Under the pieces are notes generated by a model. That model worked only from the letters and a program-made list of their open reading frames with translations, was not told the origin of the DNA and searched no databases. A program made the translations under genes and the position numbers. From Rhodococcus sp. Z13 (GTDB lineage: Bacteria > Actinomycetota > Actinomycetes > Mycobacteriales > Mycobacteriaceae), in the NCBI RefSeq assembly GCF_025837095.1, contig NZ_CP107551.1, positions 2,598,668-2,662,667 on the forward strand: a DNA stretch of 64,000 nt, given 5' to 3'. This document shows, piece after piece, positions 28,512 to 35,862 of the stretch. Each line of letters begins with the position of its first letter. Within the stretch, counting starts at the first letter, position 1.

Positions 28512-28525
28512 TATCTTCGACGCTC
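28512..28525 (+). promoter_or_regulatory. -10 element for the five-gene MoxR/VWA operon
   Basis: TATCTT at 28512-28517 is 8 bases before GTG 28526, and there is no ribosome binding site, suggesting a leaderless first gene. The gap to the bioQ stop is only 42 bases. Confidence 0.5.
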
Positions 28526-29812
28526 GTGACCGCGCCCTGGACCCCTGCCCGCATCGCCGCCGTGGCCCCCGACCCGTCCTCGATGACGGCCGCGCGCGGT
28601 GTGGCCTCGGCGTGGCTCGAGACCGGTCGCGACGACACCGTGCTGTGGGGCCGCTGCCGCGGTCGCGGCACCGAGCCGTACCGCACCGCCGTCGACCCGG
28701 CCGGGCCCGCCTACACGTGCTCGTGCCCGAGCCGGAAGATCCCCTGCAAGCACGCGCTGTCGCTGCTCGTGCGGTGGTCGGAGGGCGCGGTCCCGGTCGC
28801 CGAGGCCCCCGCCTTCGTCACCGGATGGATCGCGTCCCGCAGCACCGCCGTACCGGTCGCCGAACCCGACGCCGCGCCGGTGAAGGCACCCGATCCGGAG
28901 GCCGCGCGGCGCCGCACCGAGCGCATCGCGGCGGGCCTCGAGGAGCTCGGCCGGTGGCTGACCGACCGGATCCGTCTCGGTCTCGGCGCCGTCGACCACG
29001 ATCCCGCCGTCTACGACGCGATGGCCGCCCGCATGGTCGACGCCCAGGCGCCCGGGGTGGCTGCCGCGCTGCGGGCGCTGGCCGCGATCGTGGCCACCGA
29101 ACCGGACTGGCCCGCGCGGCTGCTCACCGAGTACGCGCGGCTGCACCTGATGGTGGTCGCCTTCCGGGAGCGCGACGAGCTGCCCGCCGCACTGGCCCGA
29201 TCGCTGGACACCCATCTCGGGATCAGCACCCGGGCCGAGGATGTACGGGCACAGGCACCCGTGCGCGACCGCTGGCAGGTGCTCGCGACCGCCGTCACCG
29301 AGGAGGGCCGGCTGTTCACCCGCCGGATCCGGTTGCGCGGCCGCACCACCGGCCGCTGGGCGACGGTGCTCGATTTCGCCCACGGCACAGCGCGTTTCAC
29401 CACGCCGTCGCCGGACCCCGGCATCCTGCTCGACGCCGACCTGCACTTCTATCCCGGCGCGGCACCCGTCCGCGCCGTGATGGGGCGGCAGCACAGTGCT
29501 TCGGAACCGTTCACGACCCTGACCGGCACGGATCTCGACACCGCGCTGGACGAGTACGCGCGCATGCGCGGCGCCGATCCGTGGCTGCGCTCCTGGCCGG
29601 TGCTGCTCGACGCGGTGGTCCCCGTCGACGGTGAGAACGGCTGGTGCGTCATCGACGGGTCCGGGCGCGCTCTCCCCCTGGCGTCCGACGACAGCCGGTG
29701 GCGTCTGCTCGCACTCGCGGGCGGGTATCCGGTGACGTTGTGCGGCGAGTGGGACGGCATCCGGCTCACCCCCGTGTCGGTGTTCGCCCGCGGTGAGGTG
29801 GTGTGCCTGTGA
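28526..29812 (+). CDS. SWIM zinc-finger protein (YehQ-like) of the MoxR/VWA cluster
   Basis: A 428-residue protein with a SWIM zinc finger at residues 65-76: CSCPSRKIPCKH, that is Cys65-x-Cys67-x6-Cys74-x-His76. SWIM domains bind DNA or protein. The remainder (helical part around 110-240, beta-rich C-terminus such as RWQVLATAVTEEGRLFTRR) has no enzymatic motif I recognise. It is the first of five genes that overlap by 4-10 bases. The E. coli yehQ gene beside yehL and yehP also encodes a SWIM protein, so this is probably the same type of system. Confidence 0.82.
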   Translation: MTAPWTPARIAAVAPDPSSMTAARGVASAWLETGRDDTVLWGRCRGRGTEPYRTAVDPAGPAYTCSCPSRKIPCKHALSLLVRWSEGAVPVAEAPAFVTGWIASRSTAVPVAEPDAAPVKAPDPEAARRRTERIAAGLEELGRWLTDRIRLGLGAVDHDPAVYDAMAARMVDAQAPGVAAALRALAAIVATEPDWPARLLTEYARLHLMVVAFRERDELPAALARSLDTHLGISTRAEDVRAQAPVRDRWQVLATAVTEEGRLFTRRIRLRGRTTGRWATVLDFAHGTARFTTPSPDPGILLDADLHFYPGAAPVRAVMGRQHSASEPFTTLTGTDLDTALDEYARMRGADPWLRSWPVLLDAVVPVDGENGWCVIDGSGRALPLASDDSRWRLLALAGGYPVTLCGEWDGIRLTPVSVFARGEVVCL

Positions 29813-31260
29813 CCGTCCCCGAAGACCTGGTCACCGCAGCGCTTCTCGGCACCGCGCGGACCACACCCGATCTGCGTGCCCTGCACACCTCCGCCGCCGC
29901 GGACGGACTGCTCGGCGACGCGGCCACGCGGCTGCTCTCGGCGGCGGCGCTCGAGTCGGCGTTCCTCACCTCGGCGACCGTGCCGGTGGTGCGGGAGCGT
30001 CCCGTCCCCGCTCCCGAGGACGATCGTCCGGTACTTCCCGATGCGGCCGCCGAACGGCTGCGGGCGCTGCTCACCGTCCGTTCTCCGTTGCTCGACGAAT
30101 GGTTCGATGCCGCAGCGGGTTTCCGGGCCGACCACCGGATCGTGGTGGATCTTCTCGACGCCGCTGCGGCCGATCCGGTCCACCGCGACCGGCTCGTGCG
30201 GCTCACCGGTGCCCGCGGCCGGTGGCTCGCGGCCCGCAACCGTGCGTGGACGGACCTGCTGCCACCCGACCCGGACGACGAAACGCCCTGGCGGGACGGC
30301 CCGCCGGCCGGTCGTCGCCGCTGGTTCGAGGCGGTACGCGCCCAGCGGCCCGAGCACGCGGCCGATCTGCTGGCGGTGGCGTGGAGTTCGCACACCGCGG
30401 CGCAGCGCGCCGAACTGCTCGAACTGCTCACCGACGGCCTCGGCCCCCACGACGAGGCGCTGCTCGAACGCGCCCTCGACGACCGCAGCCGGAAGGTGCG
30501 GGCGGTGGCCCTGGACCTGCTGTCCCGGCTTCCCGGCTCGGCGTTCGCGCACCGCATGGCCGAGCGGGTGGAGGCGTGGATCCGTCTCGACGGGTTCGCG
30601 CCCGTCGTCGCCGTGCCCGAGGCCCTGGATGCGAGCGCGCTCCGCGACGGTCTCGGCGAGCCCGCCCCGCGCGGCACCGATCCCCGCACGTTCCGGGCCG
30701 TCACGCTGATCTCGGCGGCGCCGCTGCAGGTGTGGGATCGCTACCGCGACGGCACGTCGCTGCCGCGTTTCGATCCCGACGACCCGCTCTGCGCCGCGCT
30801 GCTCGACGGCTGGAGCACGGCGACGGTCCGGCAACGCAACAGCGAGTGGGCGACCGCGCTGCTGCACCGATGCGGCAGCGTCGGCCAGGATCTCGCGCAG
30901 GTGCTGCCCCGCGAGGTCGTGCTCGACCGGCTGCGGGCGGCGCGACGGACGAGCCTGCTCGACCGCGTGCGCGGGGTGCAGCGGCCGGAGGTGCTCGACG
31001 AGGCCCTGCTCGCCGCGTTGCCCGCCCCCTGGCCGCGCGACGTGGCGGAGAAGGTGCTCACCGCCCTGTACTCCGATCCGGAAAGCACCCGGCTCGTCCA
31101 CGAGGTGCTGGCCCTGCTCGCCCACCGCGCGCCGTTCGAGCTCGCCGACCTGCTGGCGGACGCCGCGAACCGCACCGACGATCTCGGCCGGGTGCACCTG
31201 TTCGCGAGCGCCGCCGACACCCTGATCCTGCGCCGCACCATCCACGAGGAGTTGAGTTGA
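29803..31260 (+). CDS. DUF5691-like protein of the MoxR/VWA cluster
   Basis: A 485-residue helical protein starting at GTG 29803, overlapping the SWIM gene by 10 bases. It is rich in Ala/Leu/Arg repeats like those of HEAT-type scaffolds (DRSRKVRAVALDLLSRLPGS near 225-245) and includes LLGTARTTPDL at the N-terminus. It lacks catalytic motifs that I can recognise. Proteins of this type usually accompany MoxR ATPases and SWIM proteins. A scaffold or adaptor role is inferred. The DUF number is from memory of the family look and was not checked. Confidence 0.65.
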   Translation: MPVTVPEDLVTAALLGTARTTPDLRALHTSAAADGLLGDAATRLLSAAALESAFLTSATVPVVRERPVPAPEDDRPVLPDAAAERLRALLTVRSPLLDEWFDAAAGFRADHRIVVDLLDAAAADPVHRDRLVRLTGARGRWLAARNRAWTDLLPPDPDDETPWRDGPPAGRRRWFEAVRAQRPEHAADLLAVAWSSHTAAQRAELLELLTDGLGPHDEALLERALDDRSRKVRAVALDLLSRLPGSAFAHRMAERVEAWIRLDGFAPVVAVPEALDASALRDGLGEPAPRGTDPRTFRAVTLISAAPLQVWDRYRDGTSLPRFDPDDPLCAALLDGWSTATVRQRNSEWATALLHRCGSVGQDLAQVLPREVVLDRLRAARRTSLLDRVRGVQRPEVLDEALLAALPAPWPRDVAEKVLTALYSDPESTRLVHEVLALLAHRAPFELADLLADAANRTDDLGRVHLFASAADTLILRRTIHEELS

Positions 31261-32462
31261 CCGAACCCGAGGCCACCGGAGCCGAGTTCCCCGCCGCGGA
31301 ATCGACCCCCACGGAATCGGCCGCCACGGAATCGATCGCCACGGAATCGATCACCGGGGAGCCCACCGGCGCCGTGCCCGCTCCTGCGCTGCTGCGCCCG
31401 CACGCCGAGCAGCAGTACGCGCACGAACTCGCGGCGCTCGCCCGGCTCGACGACCGGCCCCGCCCGCCGTCGTGGGCGTTGTCCCCCTGGGCGGTGGTGA
31501 CCTACCTGCTCGGCGGGGAGCTGTCCGACGGCACGGTGATCACTCCCAAGTACATCGGTCCGCGCCGCATCGTGGAGGTCGCGGTCGCCACCCTGGCCAC
31601 CGACCGGGCCCTGCTCCTGCTGGGTGTGCCGGGTACGGCGAAGACCTGGGTGTCCGAGCATCTCGCCGCGGCGATCAGCGGGTCGTCGACCCTGCTCGTG
31701 CAGGGCACGGCGGGCACGAGCGAGGACGCCGTCCGGTACGGCTGGAACTATGCCCGGCTGCTCGCCGAGGGCCCGAGCCCGGCCGCGCTGGTGCCCTCCC
31801 CCGTCATGACCGCGATGCGGCGGGGCGCGGTGGCCCGCATCGAGGAACTCACCCGCATCCCCGCCGATGTGCAGGACGCGCTGATCACGGTGCTGTCCGA
31901 GAAGACCCTCCCGGTACCGGAACTCGGTATCGAGGTGCAGGCGGTGAAGGGTTTCAACGTCATCGCCACCGCCAACGACCGGGACCGCGGCGTCAACGAC
32001 CTGTCCTCGGCGCTGCGGCGCCGTTTCAACACCGTCGTGCTGCCTCTGCCCGCCTCGGAGGAGGACGAGGTCGCCATCGTCACCCGCCGCGTCGAGCAGC
32101 TCGGTGCCGCACTCGAACTGCCGCCGGTGCCGGCGGCCGCCGAGGAGATCCGCCGGGTCGTCACGGTGTTCCGCGAGCTGCGCAACGGGGTCACGGTCGA
32201 CGGCCGCACCCGGCTCAAGTCGCCGTCGGGCACCCTGTCGACGGCCGAGGCCATCTCGGTGGTCACCGGAGGGCTGGCGTTGTCCGCGCACTTCGGTGAC
32301 GGGGTGTTGCGGCCGGAGGACGTCGCGGCCGGGATCGTCGGGTCGGTCGTCAAGGATCCGGTGGCCGACCGGGTGGTGTGGAACGAATATCTCGAGGCCG
32401 TGGTGCGCGAGCGCGGCGACTGGTCGGACTTCTACCGGGCGTGCCGGGAGATCGCGGGGTGA
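31257..32462 (+). CDS. MoxR-type AAA+ ATPase (YehL-like)
   Basis: A 401-residue ATPase. It starts at TTG 31257, which overlaps the previous stop (TTGA); no ATG or GTG is available, so translation depends on coupling. Residues 1-45 are a low-complexity tail with repeats of TES (15-bp DNA repeats near 31320-31350). Walker A is GVPGTAKT (123-130). The Walker B place reads ARIEELTRIP, with Glu for the usual Asp; sensor 1 is NVIATANDRD and the arginine finger is near SSALRRRF. MoxR ATPases work with VWA proteins as chaperone-like remodelling machines; the VWA partner is two genes downstream. Confidence 0.88.
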   Translation: MTEPEATGAEFPAAESTPTESAATESIATESITGEPTGAVPAPALLRPHAEQQYAHELAALARLDDRPRPPSWALSPWAVVTYLLGGELSDGTVITPKYIGPRRIVEVAVATLATDRALLLLGVPGTAKTWVSEHLAAAISGSSTLLVQGTAGTSEDAVRYGWNYARLLAEGPSPAALVPSPVMTAMRRGAVARIEELTRIPADVQDALITVLSEKTLPVPELGIEVQAVKGFNVIATANDRDRGVNDLSSALRRRFNTVVLPLPASEEDEVAIVTRRVEQLGAALELPPVPAAAEEIRRVVTVFRELRNGVTVDGRTRLKSPSGTLSTAEAISVVTGGLALSAHFGDGVLRPEDVAAGIVGSVVKDPVADRVVWNEYLEAVVRERGDWSDFYRACREIAG

Positions 32463-34711
32463 CCGTGCCGTCGAGCAACGGTCCCGCCGAGATTCGGGTC
32501 TTCGGGATCCGGCACCACGGCCCGGGATCGGCGCGGGCCCTGCTGCGGGCGCTCTCGGCGTTCGAACCGGACACCGTGCTGATCGAGGGGCCCGCCGACG
32601 CCGACCCGGTGCTCGCCCTGGCGACCGGCGAGGACATGACCCCGCCGGTCGCGTTGATGGCCTACGCCCGCGACGAACCGGGCCGGGCGGCGTTCTGGCC
32701 GTTCGCCGCGTTCTCTCCCGAATGGCAGGCGCTGCGCTGGGCGTATCTGCACGACGCGGACGTGCGGTTCTGCGATCTGCCCGCGGCGATCACCCTCGCG
32801 GACGACCGGGATCCCGAGGCCGCCGGACGCGGCGACCTGCTCGGCGAACTCGCCCGCTCCGGCGGGTACGACGACTTCGAGCAGTGGTGGGACGCCGTCG
32901 TCGAACACTGCCGCGACACCGAGGACGTGCGGACGACCGGGACCGACGAGACCGCGGTGTTCGACGAGACCGCGCTGTTCGACGAGATCACCGAAGCCAT
33001 GCGGGTTCTGCGCGAGGGCGTCGAACTCGACGCGTACACCGCGCGCCGCGAGGCGCACATGCGGCAGGTGCTGCGCGCGACCGTCAAGGCCGGAGCCCGC
33101 GCCATCGTCGTGGTGTGCGGGGCGATGCACGCCCCCGCACTGACCGGGAAGCTCGGGCCGGCCGCCCCGGATGCACGGCTGCTGCGGGGACTGCCCAAGG
33201 TGAAGACGAACCTGACCTGGGTGCCCTGGAGTCATTCCCGGCTGTCGCTGCGCTCCGGCTACGGTGCGGGCATCACCTCCCCCGGCTGGTACCACCATCT
33301 GTTCACCGAACCCGCCGACACCACGGCCCGCTGGTTCACGCGGGTCGCGCGGGTGCTGCGCAAGGAGGACCTGCCGGTCTCGAGCGCCCACGTCATCGAG
33401 GCCACCCGCCTCGCCGACACCCTCGCCGCCCTGCGCGGCCGCGGCGCCGCCGGTCTCGAGGAGGTCACCGAGGCGACCCGCGCGGTGTTGTGCGACGGCG
33501 ACGACGTCCTGCTGGACCTGGTGATGCGCCGGCTCGTCGTCGGGGAGGCGCTCGGCGCGGTGCCCGAGGAGACCCCGACCGTCCCCCTCGACGCCGACCT
33601 GCAGCGGCAGGCTAAGTCGTTGCGGATCAAGCGGGCCGCGACCGCGAAGTCCGTGGACCTCGACCTGCGCCGCGACATCGACGTACGACGCTCGCATCTG
33701 CTGCACCGGTTGATGCTGCTCGATATCGACTGGGGCACACCGGCGGAGAGCGCGGTGCGTTCGACCGGCACCTTCCGCGAGTCGTGGACGCTGGTCTGGC
33801 GCCCCGAGCTGTCGGTGGCCGTCGTGGAGGCGGCCCGGTGGGGCACGACGGTCGAGGCCGCCGCGCACGCGACGGTGCTCGACCGCGCACGCCGCCCGGG
33901 CACGAGCCTCGGTGAGGTCACCGAACTGCTCGAGCGTGCCCTGCTCGCCGACCTGCGGCGGGCGGTCCCGGCTCTCGTCACGGCGGTCGACGCGGCCGCC
34001 GCCCTCGACCACGACGTGCTGCACCTGATGACGGCGCTGCCGACGCTGGTACGCACCGTCCGGTACGGCGACGTGCGCGGCACCGACCTGTCGTCGCTGG
34101 TGCACGTCGTCGACGCGCTGCTCGCCCGCACCTGCGCGGGCCTGCCCGCGGCGGTGACCGGACTCGACCGCGACGCCGCCGACACGCTGCGCACCGCGAT
34201 CGACGAGGTGCACGTCGCGCTCGCCGTGCGCGAGGACCCCGAGGCCACCGGCCGGTGGCTCGACGTGCTGGCCGCCGTCAGCGAGCGGGAGGACGTCGAC
34301 GGGCTGCTCACCGGCCGCACCACCCGGCTGCTGCGCGACGCGGGCCGCCTCGACGAGCCGCACACCGCGCTGCGTGTCGCGCGGGCACTGTCGGTGGGGA
34401 GCACGGTGACCGCGAAGGCCCGCTGGATCGAGGGTTTCCTCGGCGGCGGGGGGTTGCTGCTCGTGCACGACCGCAGCCTGCTGCGGCTGGTGGACGACTG
34501 GCTCCGCGGTCTGGGCGACGAGGACTTCCTCGACGTGCTGCCGGTGCTGCGCCGTACCTTCGGTTCGTTCGCGTTCGGGGAGCGGCGGCTGCTCGGCCGC
34601 GCGGTGCGCGGCGAGCGCACCCCCGCCCCGCGTGCCGAGTCCGGCCTGGCGGTCGACCGCGGCCGTCTCGCCGTCGCCGCGACCGCACGGATCCTGGGGG
34701 TGACCGCGTGA
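32459..34711 (+). CDS. DUF5682-like protein (YehM-like) of the MoxR/VWA cluster
   Basis: A 750-residue protein from GTG 32459, overlapping the ATPase stop by 4 bases. The N-terminal third (IRVFGIRHHGPGSARALLRA, then PDTVLIEGPADADP, and later IVVVCGAMHAPALTGKLG) has conserved-looking His, Glu and Asp in an arrangement like that of the erythromycin-esterase/ChaN/TIKI group, so it may be an enzyme. The rest is helical. Its length is close to that of E. coli YehM (about 760). Both the enzymatic idea and the DUF name are inference. Confidence 0.65.
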   Translation: MTVPSSNGPAEIRVFGIRHHGPGSARALLRALSAFEPDTVLIEGPADADPVLALATGEDMTPPVALMAYARDEPGRAAFWPFAAFSPEWQALRWAYLHDADVRFCDLPAAITLADDRDPEAAGRGDLLGELARSGGYDDFEQWWDAVVEHCRDTEDVRTTGTDETAVFDETALFDEITEAMRVLREGVELDAYTARREAHMRQVLRATVKAGARAIVVVCGAMHAPALTGKLGPAAPDARLLRGLPKVKTNLTWVPWSHSRLSLRSGYGAGITSPGWYHHLFTEPADTTARWFTRVARVLRKEDLPVSSAHVIEATRLADTLAALRGRGAAGLEEVTEATRAVLCDGDDVLLDLVMRRLVVGEALGAVPEETPTVPLDADLQRQAKSLRIKRAATAKSVDLDLRRDIDVRRSHLLHRLMLLDIDWGTPAESAVRSTGTFRESWTLVWRPELSVAVVEAARWGTTVEAAAHATVLDRARRPGTSLGEVTELLERALLADLRRAVPALVTAVDAAAALDHDVLHLMTALPTLVRTVRYGDVRGTDLSSLVHVVDALLARTCAGLPAAVTGLDRDAADTLRTAIDEVHVALAVREDPEATGRWLDVLAAVSEREDVDGLLTGRTTRLLRDAGRLDEPHTALRVARALSVGSTVTAKARWIEGFLGGGGLLLVHDRSLLRLVDDWLRGLGDEDFLDVLPVLRRTFGSFAFGERRLLGRAVRGERTPAPRAESGLAVDRGRLAVAATARILGVTA

Positions 34712-35862
34712 CCACACCGTCCGACGATCAGGAACGGCTGCGCCGGTGGCGCCTCCTCCTCGGTGAGGCCGCCGAGGACTCCACGGGCGCCCTCCCCGCG
34801 GCGGACGACGCGGCGATGGACGCCGCGCTGGCGGCGCTGTACGACTCGGCGCCCGTCGACGGCGACGCACCGCGCAGCGCCGGGCTCGGGGCGTCGGCGC
34901 CGCGGGTGGCGCGCTGGCTCGGCGACATCCGCACCTACTTCCCCGCGTCGGTGGTGCAGGTGATGCAGCGCGACGCCGTGGACCGGCTCGGGCTGACCCG
35001 GCTGCTGCTCGAACCGGAACTGCTCGAGGCGGTGGAACCGGACGTGCACCTCGTCGGCACCCTGCTGAGCCTGAACCGGGTGATGCCGGAGACCACCCGG
35101 GCGACGGCCCGCGCGGTGGTGGAGAAGGTGGTCCGCGAGGTCGAGGAACGGCTCGCGCAGAACACCCGCGCCGCCGTGGCCGGAGCACTGAACCGGTCGG
35201 CGCGCACCGCGCGGCCGAAGCCGCGCGACATCGACTGGGACCGCACGATCCGCGCGAATCTCGCCCACTACCTGCCCGAGCACCGCACCGTGGTGCCGCA
35301 GAAGCTGGTCGGGTACGGACGCCGCTCCCAGGCGGTGCAGCGCGAGGTGGTGCTGGCCGTGGACCAGTCCGGCTCGATGGCATCGAGCGTGGTGTACGCG
35401 TCCGTGTTCGCGGCGGTCCTCGCGTCGATGCGGGCGCTGCGGACCTCACTGGTGGTGTTCGACACCGCTGTGGTGGATCTGACCGACAAGCTCACCGATC
35501 CGGTGGACGTGCTGTTCGGGACGCAGCTCGGCGGCGGCACCGACATCAACCGGGCGATCGCCTACAGCCGGTCGCTGATCACCCGACCCACGGACTCGTT
35601 GTTCGTGCTGATCTCGGACCTGTACGAGGGCGGGATCCGGCAGGAGATGCTCGCCCGGGTGCAGGAGATGCTCACCGCCGGTGCGCAGGTGGTGGTGCTG
35701 CTCGCGTTGTCCGACGACGGCGCACCGTCGTTCGACCGGGACAACGCCGCGGCCCTCGCGGCGCTGGGAGTGCCGGCGTTCGCGTGCACCCCGGACCGGT
35801 TTCCGGAGCTGCTCGCCGTCGCCCTCGAGCGCGGGGACGTCTCCCGCTGGGCTCAGGCCTGA
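34708..35862 (+). CDS. VWA-domain protein (YehP-like) of the MoxR/VWA cluster
   Basis: A 384-residue protein from GTG 34708, overlapping the previous stop by 4 bases. The N-terminal half is helical (LGDIRTYFPASVVQVMQRDA ... EVEERLAQNTRAAVAGAL). The C-terminal half is a von Willebrand A domain with an intact metal-ion-dependent adhesion site: Asp219-x-Ser221-x-Ser223 in VDQSGSM, Thr in GGGTDINRA, and Asp in LISDLYEGG. Such domains bind partners through Mg2+ and are the usual clients of MoxR ATPases. The length matches YehP (about 380). The 3' end overlaps the convergent MFS gene by 10 bases. Confidence 0.87.
   Translation: MTTPSDDQERLRRWRLLLGEAAEDSTGALPAADDAAMDAALAALYDSAPVDGDAPRSAGLGASAPRVARWLGDIRTYFPASVVQVMQRDAVDRLGLTRLLLEPELLEAVEPDVHLVGTLLSLNRVMPETTRATARAVVEKVVREVEERLAQNTRAAVAGALNRSARTARPKPRDIDWDRTIRANLAHYLPEHRTVVPQKLVGYGRRSQAVQREVVLAVDQSGSMASSVVYASVFAAVLASMRALRTSLVVFDTAVVDLTDKLTDPVDVLFGTQLGGGTDINRAIAYSRSLITRPTDSLFVLISDLYEGGIRQEMLARVQEMLTAGAQVVVLLALSDDGAPSFDRDNAAALAALGVPAFACTPDRFPELLAVALERGDVSRWAQA

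Follow-up and report, generated by a model that had tools for sequence, protein, structure and literature searches.

What kind of machine is encoded by five overlapping genes that lie beside a biotin-synthase-type gene in Rhodococcus sp. Z13, and do the five belong together at all? The stretch analysed, hereafter the window, comprises 64,000 nucleotides of contig NZ_CP107551.1 (positions 2,598,668 to 2,662,667); the genes encode, in this order, a SWIM zinc-finger protein, a DUF5691 protein, an AAA+ ATPase, a DUF5682 protein and a von Willebrand factor type A (VWA) protein, named P0001 to P0005. A first-pass annotation, made from the sequence alone, had taken them for an actinobacterial version of the Escherichia coli yehL/yehM/yehP/yehQ group. 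The searched literature, which mostly excluded subscription journals, yielded no paper on DUF5682 or DUF5691 and no assigned function for yehL/M/P/Q. Here we report that the genes are a conserved five-gene unit with intact ATPase and VWA motifs, and we consider it fairly probable that they encode a YehLMP-type MoxR-VWA machine with a gated DUF5682 hydrolase, a SWIM-DUF5691 recognition arm and a role in quality control or stress in the host cell.

Conserved linkage of five gene families

All five open reading frames (ORFs) lie on the forward strand with gene-to-gene overlaps of exactly 10, 4, 4 and 4 bases, as annotated before, and Pfam profiles recovered each family label assigned at first pass (Table 1). 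In a sample of 201 same-family genomes, 67 match DUF5682 (66 of them over the cut-off) and 65 match DUF5691; 62 genomes have both, five DUF5682 alone and three DUF5691 alone. In 62/62 genomes with both, the two are at most 5 kb apart and on the same strand. This linkage is far beyond chance, Fisher's p for the DUF5682/DUF5691 pair being a value that ignores genome relatedness. Nine DUF5691 matches in these genomes are not near any DUF5682; loci of this kind are L135, L136 and L145 (from genomes G254, G319 and G227), which hold stand-alone DUF5691 paralogues whose match starts at about position 42-65 of the profile.

From the same-family and phylum samples 45 loci were taken with about 1.5 kb of flank, the window's own locus included. 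BLAST detected the ATPase in all 45 of them and the VWA gene in all but L022, which is a second piece of L017, and L023, hence in 43. In a collection of named genomes a relative is encoded by 576 of the 593 candidate stretches, and the best 80 were analysed. Because the search pattern contained a G..H motif and the best 80 of 576 were taken, these loci are biased to close relatives. All five families occur together in 69 of them, which is the co-occurrence that the first-pass annotation had made a test of its reading. Of the 69 complete loci, 43 have all five genes on the same strand, in 12 SWIM and DUF5691 share a single frame, and in 14 (Streptomyces, Kitasatospora, Streptantibioticus) the SWIM and DUF5691 genes run opposite to the rest; ten of the 11 incomplete loci have a contig end at most 206 bases away on at least one side. 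Two cyanobacterial DUF5682 genes stand apart: at L109 (Mastigocoleus) the other four families are absent despite about 9.9 kb on each side, and L093, cut on its left side, has no linked ATPase or VWA gene, the VWA gene being absent although 9,982 bases are available on the right.

Fusions suggest that the unit comprises two sub-assemblies, SWIM-DUF5691 and AAA/DUF5682/VWA, since SWIM-DUF5691 fusions (the 12 complete loci above, plus Hymenobacter) and DUF5682-VWA fusions both occur, in line with the Streptomyces split. The latter are single frames of about 1350 aa, seen where two actinobacterial genomes carry a second copy (L019, 985-5049, and L020, 1210-5232, both on the + strand). Within the SWIM finger, CxCPSRxxPCKH is present in 70/74 SWIM-family ORFs of the best 80 loci and a looser motif in 71/74.

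P0003 matches YehL over 362 aa at 41% identity (BLAST, E 3e-76), and YehL is given as one of seven MoxR subfamilies in PMC3893208. The placing in the MoxR group, proposed at first pass, rests on this homology, because AAA_3 (24.9 bits against 27) and bpMoxR (21.4 against 27) scored below their Pfam cut-offs. G123, K129, R194, E196, E197, N240 and R256 are conserved in 83/83 ATPases; we take R-x-E-E at 194-197 to be a Walker B-like motif, N240 to be sensor 1 and the arginines at 254-256 to be motif residues as well. The Walker B-like R-x-E-E, found in 83/83 (window 31836-31850, residues 194-198), departs from the customary form, D-E. P0005 matches YehP (39%, E 6e-82), and its metal-ion-dependent adhesion site (MIDAS), called intact from the first, is conserved as D219-x-S221-x-S223 in 81/81, T278 in 79/81 and D304 in 81/81 VWA sequences. 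The locus thus has the features of a YehL-type MoxR-VWA module: a YehL-homologous ATPase with adjacent DUF5682 and VWA_CoxE genes, the latter with intact MIDAS. RavA-ViaA and NorQ-NorD are alike in that a MoxR ATPase has a VWA partner; to our knowledge, neither has a DUF5682, DUF5691 or SWIM subunit.

Predicted fold and candidate active site of DUF5682

P0004 is homologous to YehM (28%, E 3e-39 by BLAST). Among the matches listed by a Foldseek search with the whole protein, most are helical repeats and none reaches E <= 0.001; the N-terminal domain was then folded alone. Its predicted structure has the alpha/beta core of the TIKI/EreA/ChaN superfamily (EreC, Bcr135, ChaN, HopBA1), with ChaN as the best named match, a domain that the first-pass annotation had missed. 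In the model of residues 1-260 two His and one Glu sit at matching strand ends: of the 2His/2Glu tetrad of active TIKI hydrolases H20, H224 and E43 are present, whereas the first Glu is replaced by R18. DUF5682 further differs from the superfamily in being fused to a helical region of about 430 residues and in being tied to an AAA-VWA pair. At the level of sequence, a search of the PDB with the DUF5682 profile gave nothing at E <= 10, and profile comparison with EreA aligned the motifs collinearly without significance. A comparison with TraB (PF01963) was dropped, this family having one match among 60 actinobacterial genomes.

The candidate active site comprises H20, E43, E88, D106, R197, E198 and H224, which are near-invariant, also in distant members. 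Conservation was counted over 52 rows, in which four genes are entered twice and L023, too diverged for the profile, is missing; a count over 117 sequences was set aside in their favour, its members having been selected by motif pattern. Given its predicted TIKI/EreA/ChaN-like domain, DUF5682 is a candidate for the machine's enzymatic subunit. We suggest, tentatively, that the DUF5682/YehM proteins are TIKI-fold hydrolases of a new branch, and that a MoxR AAA+ ring drives or gates them by way of a VWA adaptor.

Alternatively, DUF5682 could be a non-catalytic haem or metal carrier, or a scaffold, of TIKI fold, and the machine a MoxR-VWA assembly chaperone, used for cofactor insertion or for the maturation of a client complex in the manner of NorQ/NorD or RavA/ViaA. 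The VWA protein is indeed of CoxE type, MoxR-VWA pairs such as NorQ/NorD are reported to insert cofactors, ChaN is titled a haem binder, and the tetrad lacks one Glu. Yet the H/E/D/R/E/H set, near-invariant even among distant members, looks like an active site, and no client gene recurs beside the module across genera: in the best 80 loci, with flank genes called by a GC-position heuristic, the most widespread flank family reaches 6 of 38 genus labels, and the families commonest by number of loci (14) come from two or three genera. We regard a chaperone of this kind as unlikely, if still worth weighing.

Alternative layouts, distribution and possible role

How far does the likeness to E. coli extend? 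The K-12 order is yehI (DUF4132), yehK, yehL, yehM, yehP, yehQ, and the homologues of ATPase, DUF5682 and VWA protein follow in the same order as in the window, so that the proposed kinship stands for yehL, yehM and yehP. It does not stand for yehQ. Although a SWIM protein is present in both, YehQ has 614 aa, is encoded after the VWA gene and has only the finger in common with P0001 (no BLAST match at E <= 0.1; HHalign probability 0.8%, finger only), which falls short of full-length homology. In addition, DUF4132 (YehI) stands beside the E. coli core, no DUF5691 match was found in the E. coli control genome, and P0002 had no BLAST match at E <= 0.1 among eight yeh proteins. Since DUF5691 and DUF4132 seem to replace each other, the two were compared, and homology found no support (HHalign probability 0.2%).

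The E. coli arrangement conforms to a second layout of distant actinobacterial loci, namely DUF4132, AAA, DUF5682 and VWA, followed by a protein that has a SWIM-like finger; an Iodobacter plasmid is annotated likewise. Five of nine scanned proteins contain DUF4132 (L138, L139, L140, L143 and L144), one of them with WGR; the SWIM-like finger occurs at the same five loci, with a doubtful one in L141. A third layout, VWA, AAA, DUF5682 with a diverged DUF5682, is seen in L137; L142 (identical to L023) has an ATPase close to that of L137, an even more diverged DUF5682 and no VWA gene identified. When the ATPase tree is rooted on four distant outgroups, the loci of the second layout cluster together with L019/L020 and the L137/L023 pair, and the SWIM-DUF5691 layout is not monophyletic.

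The WGR and SWIM domains allow a further explanation, in which the module repairs DNA damage or envelope/metal stress without hydrolysis, WGR/SWIM recognising DNA. In PMC8533742, a Deinococcus radiodurans DUF4132 operon and WGR protein are up on DdrO depletion, but not upregulated in irradiated irrE-deleted cells, and the link of those genes to AAA/DUF5682/VWA was not established here. Likewise, yehM is among the genes mutated in copper-evolved E. coli (PMC12409786), but such mutations are not a tested phenotype. On balance such a module appears rather improbable.

The first-pass description as an actinobacterial version proved too narrow. Complete five-family loci occur in Actinomycetota, Leptolyngbya-type cyanobacteria and Thiofilum, and the module ranges to cyanobacteria, Alpha- and Gammaproteobacteria, Bacteroidota and Deinococcota. 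Mycobacteria, said to have nothing like it, are represented by at least two named records (L086, Mycolicibacterium peregrinum; L087, Mycobacterium sp.). Annotated plasmids of Rhizobium, Methylosinus and Deinococcus share the layout seen in the window; Hymenobacter has it too, there with SWIM and DUF5691 fused. A match was obtained in 36 of 72,556 plasmid records. Small additional ORFs lie between the AAA and DUF5682 genes on Hymenobacter and Deinococcus plasmids (L161, 6371-6982; L163, 6786-7022), that of Hymenobacter looking membrane-bound by eye. The single match among 50,697 phage records is unverified: L165 (MT835988.1), a 14-kb faecal 'phage' scaffold with a 32% match to the DUF5682 N-terminus, is possibly a mis-binned bacterial piece.

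Does the module act in conflict, as had been suggested? In such a system SWIM/DUF5691 (or WGR/DUF4132) would sense nucleic acid and trigger a TIKI-type effector, with ATP setting the threshold, that is directed at phage or plasmid. The MoxR-vWA ternary conflict systems (VMAP, iSTAND, FtsH, beta-propeller), as described by Kaur et al. 2020 (PMC7159879), follow the same logic of a MoxR-type ATPase, a VWA protein and a third core protein. The third protein here, DUF5682, is none of those four: at E <= 0.1 Pfam gave only SWIM, DUF5691 and DUF5682 for P0001, P0002 and P0004, and the main text of that source makes no mention of YehL, YehM, DUF5682, DUF4132, WGR, SWIM, TraB or TIKI. A patchy distribution (DUF5682 in 10 of the 149 genomes of the phylum sample) also fits conflict, as do the few plasmid copies adjoining nuclease, restriction, recombinase or insertion sequence (IS) genes, among them those of Iodobacter and Hymenobacter.

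Against it, the yehL-yehQ stretch is core in E. coli, being covered to at least 80% in 5162/5426 genomes with 5320/5322 placements on chromosomes, and in the genus of the window DUF5682 is present in 13/15 genomes (its own included) with synteny fixed in the 9 loci compared. PADLOC 2.0.0 returned only IetA (E 0.01 and 0.021, ATPase residues 111-140), so that no subunit was counted as a known defence match. No variable effector was seen, in an analysis that included no profile search for effector domains, and the same five families recur in 69/80 loci; the phage records add the one unverified match. Direct evidence of a conflict role was not obtained, and we judge it quite improbable. We read the module as a conserved cellular unit that is sometimes mobile.

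The machine that we favour, a YehLMP-type MoxR-VWA assembly with DUF5682 as its hydrolase, might work as follows. The YehL-type ATPase would form a ring, and the VWA protein would use its MIDAS to grip a client or to link DUF5682 with the ring. In DUF5682 itself, the helical C-terminal part may serve as scaffold and the N-terminal domain as a predicted hydrolase of peptidase or esterase type, whose substrate access or activity ATP hydrolysis would switch. SWIM finger and DUF5691 would constitute the recognition arm, whose target is probably nucleic acid or a protein bound to it; where the layout is that of E. coli, this part might be taken by DUF4132, with or without WGR, and another SWIM protein. 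Most probably the module serves the host cell itself, as a conserved system of quality control or stress response rather than as a dedicated phage-defence island. If DUF5682 is indeed a hydrolase gated in this way, the module would represent a further class of MoxR-VWA ternary machines, with an exchangeable recognition arm and with ATP-dependent proteolysis or esterolysis unlike that of Clp, Lon, FtsH and the proteasome. For an operon present in nearly all E. coli, with relatives in several phyla, the fold prediction offers a first testable biochemical activity.

Probable promoter, neighbouring genes and coordinates

Table 1. Features of the five-gene locus, in window coordinates
Feature	Position	Strand	Evidence
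-10-like hexamer TATCTT, 8 bases before the GTG start	28512..28517	+	TANNNT at identical spacing in congeneric loci
Gene 1, P0001, SWIM zinc-finger protein, 428 aa	28526..29812	+	PF04434, E 8.8e-6
SWIM finger with CSCPSRKIPCKH, within P0001 residues 63-81	28712..28768	+	Pfam stretch 63-81
Gene 2, P0002, DUF5691 protein, 485 aa	29803..31260	+	PF18944, E 4.2e-100
Gene 3, P0003, YehL-type MoxR AAA+ ATPase, 401 aa, TTG start	31257..32462	+	AAA_5, E 2.1e-37
Walker A GVPGTAKT, P0003 residues 123-130	31623..31646	+	conserved residues in 83/83
Gene 4, P0004, DUF5682 protein, YehM homologue, 750 aa	32459..34711	+	PF18934, E 2.2e-255
Predicted N-terminal TIKI/ChaN/EreA-like alpha/beta domain, DUF5682 residues 10-260	32486..33238	+	AF2 model, fold comparison, conservation
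C-terminal nearly all-helical region, DUF5682 residues 286-716	33314..34606	+	
Gene 5, P0005, VWA_CoxE protein, YehP homologue with MIDAS, 384 aa	34708..35862	+	PF05762, E 8.9e-55

TATCTT probably marks the leaderless promoter of the operon. This proposal of the first-pass annotation has gained support, since the GTG is preceded at the same distance of 8 bases by a TANNNT hexamer in 10/10 sequences, namely the window and nine congeneric loci (9 of the 12 other module-bearing congeners). Because these sequences are related, the spacing counts as conservation and not as an independent test. Downstream of the operon lie an MFS gene (- strand) and a periplasmic binding protein gene; upstream are the biotin-synthase-type gene bioB (- strand) and then a TetR gene ending 42 bases before the first GTG. 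A VMAP-M2 match in the TetR protein was weak (21.3 bits against a cut-off of 27.7) and was rejected as chance. The biotin-gene neighbourhood reported earlier holds on the bioB side, bioB-tetR adjoining the module in 9/9 congeneric loci, and two genomes of the same genus without the module (G320 and G330) retain bioB-tetR.

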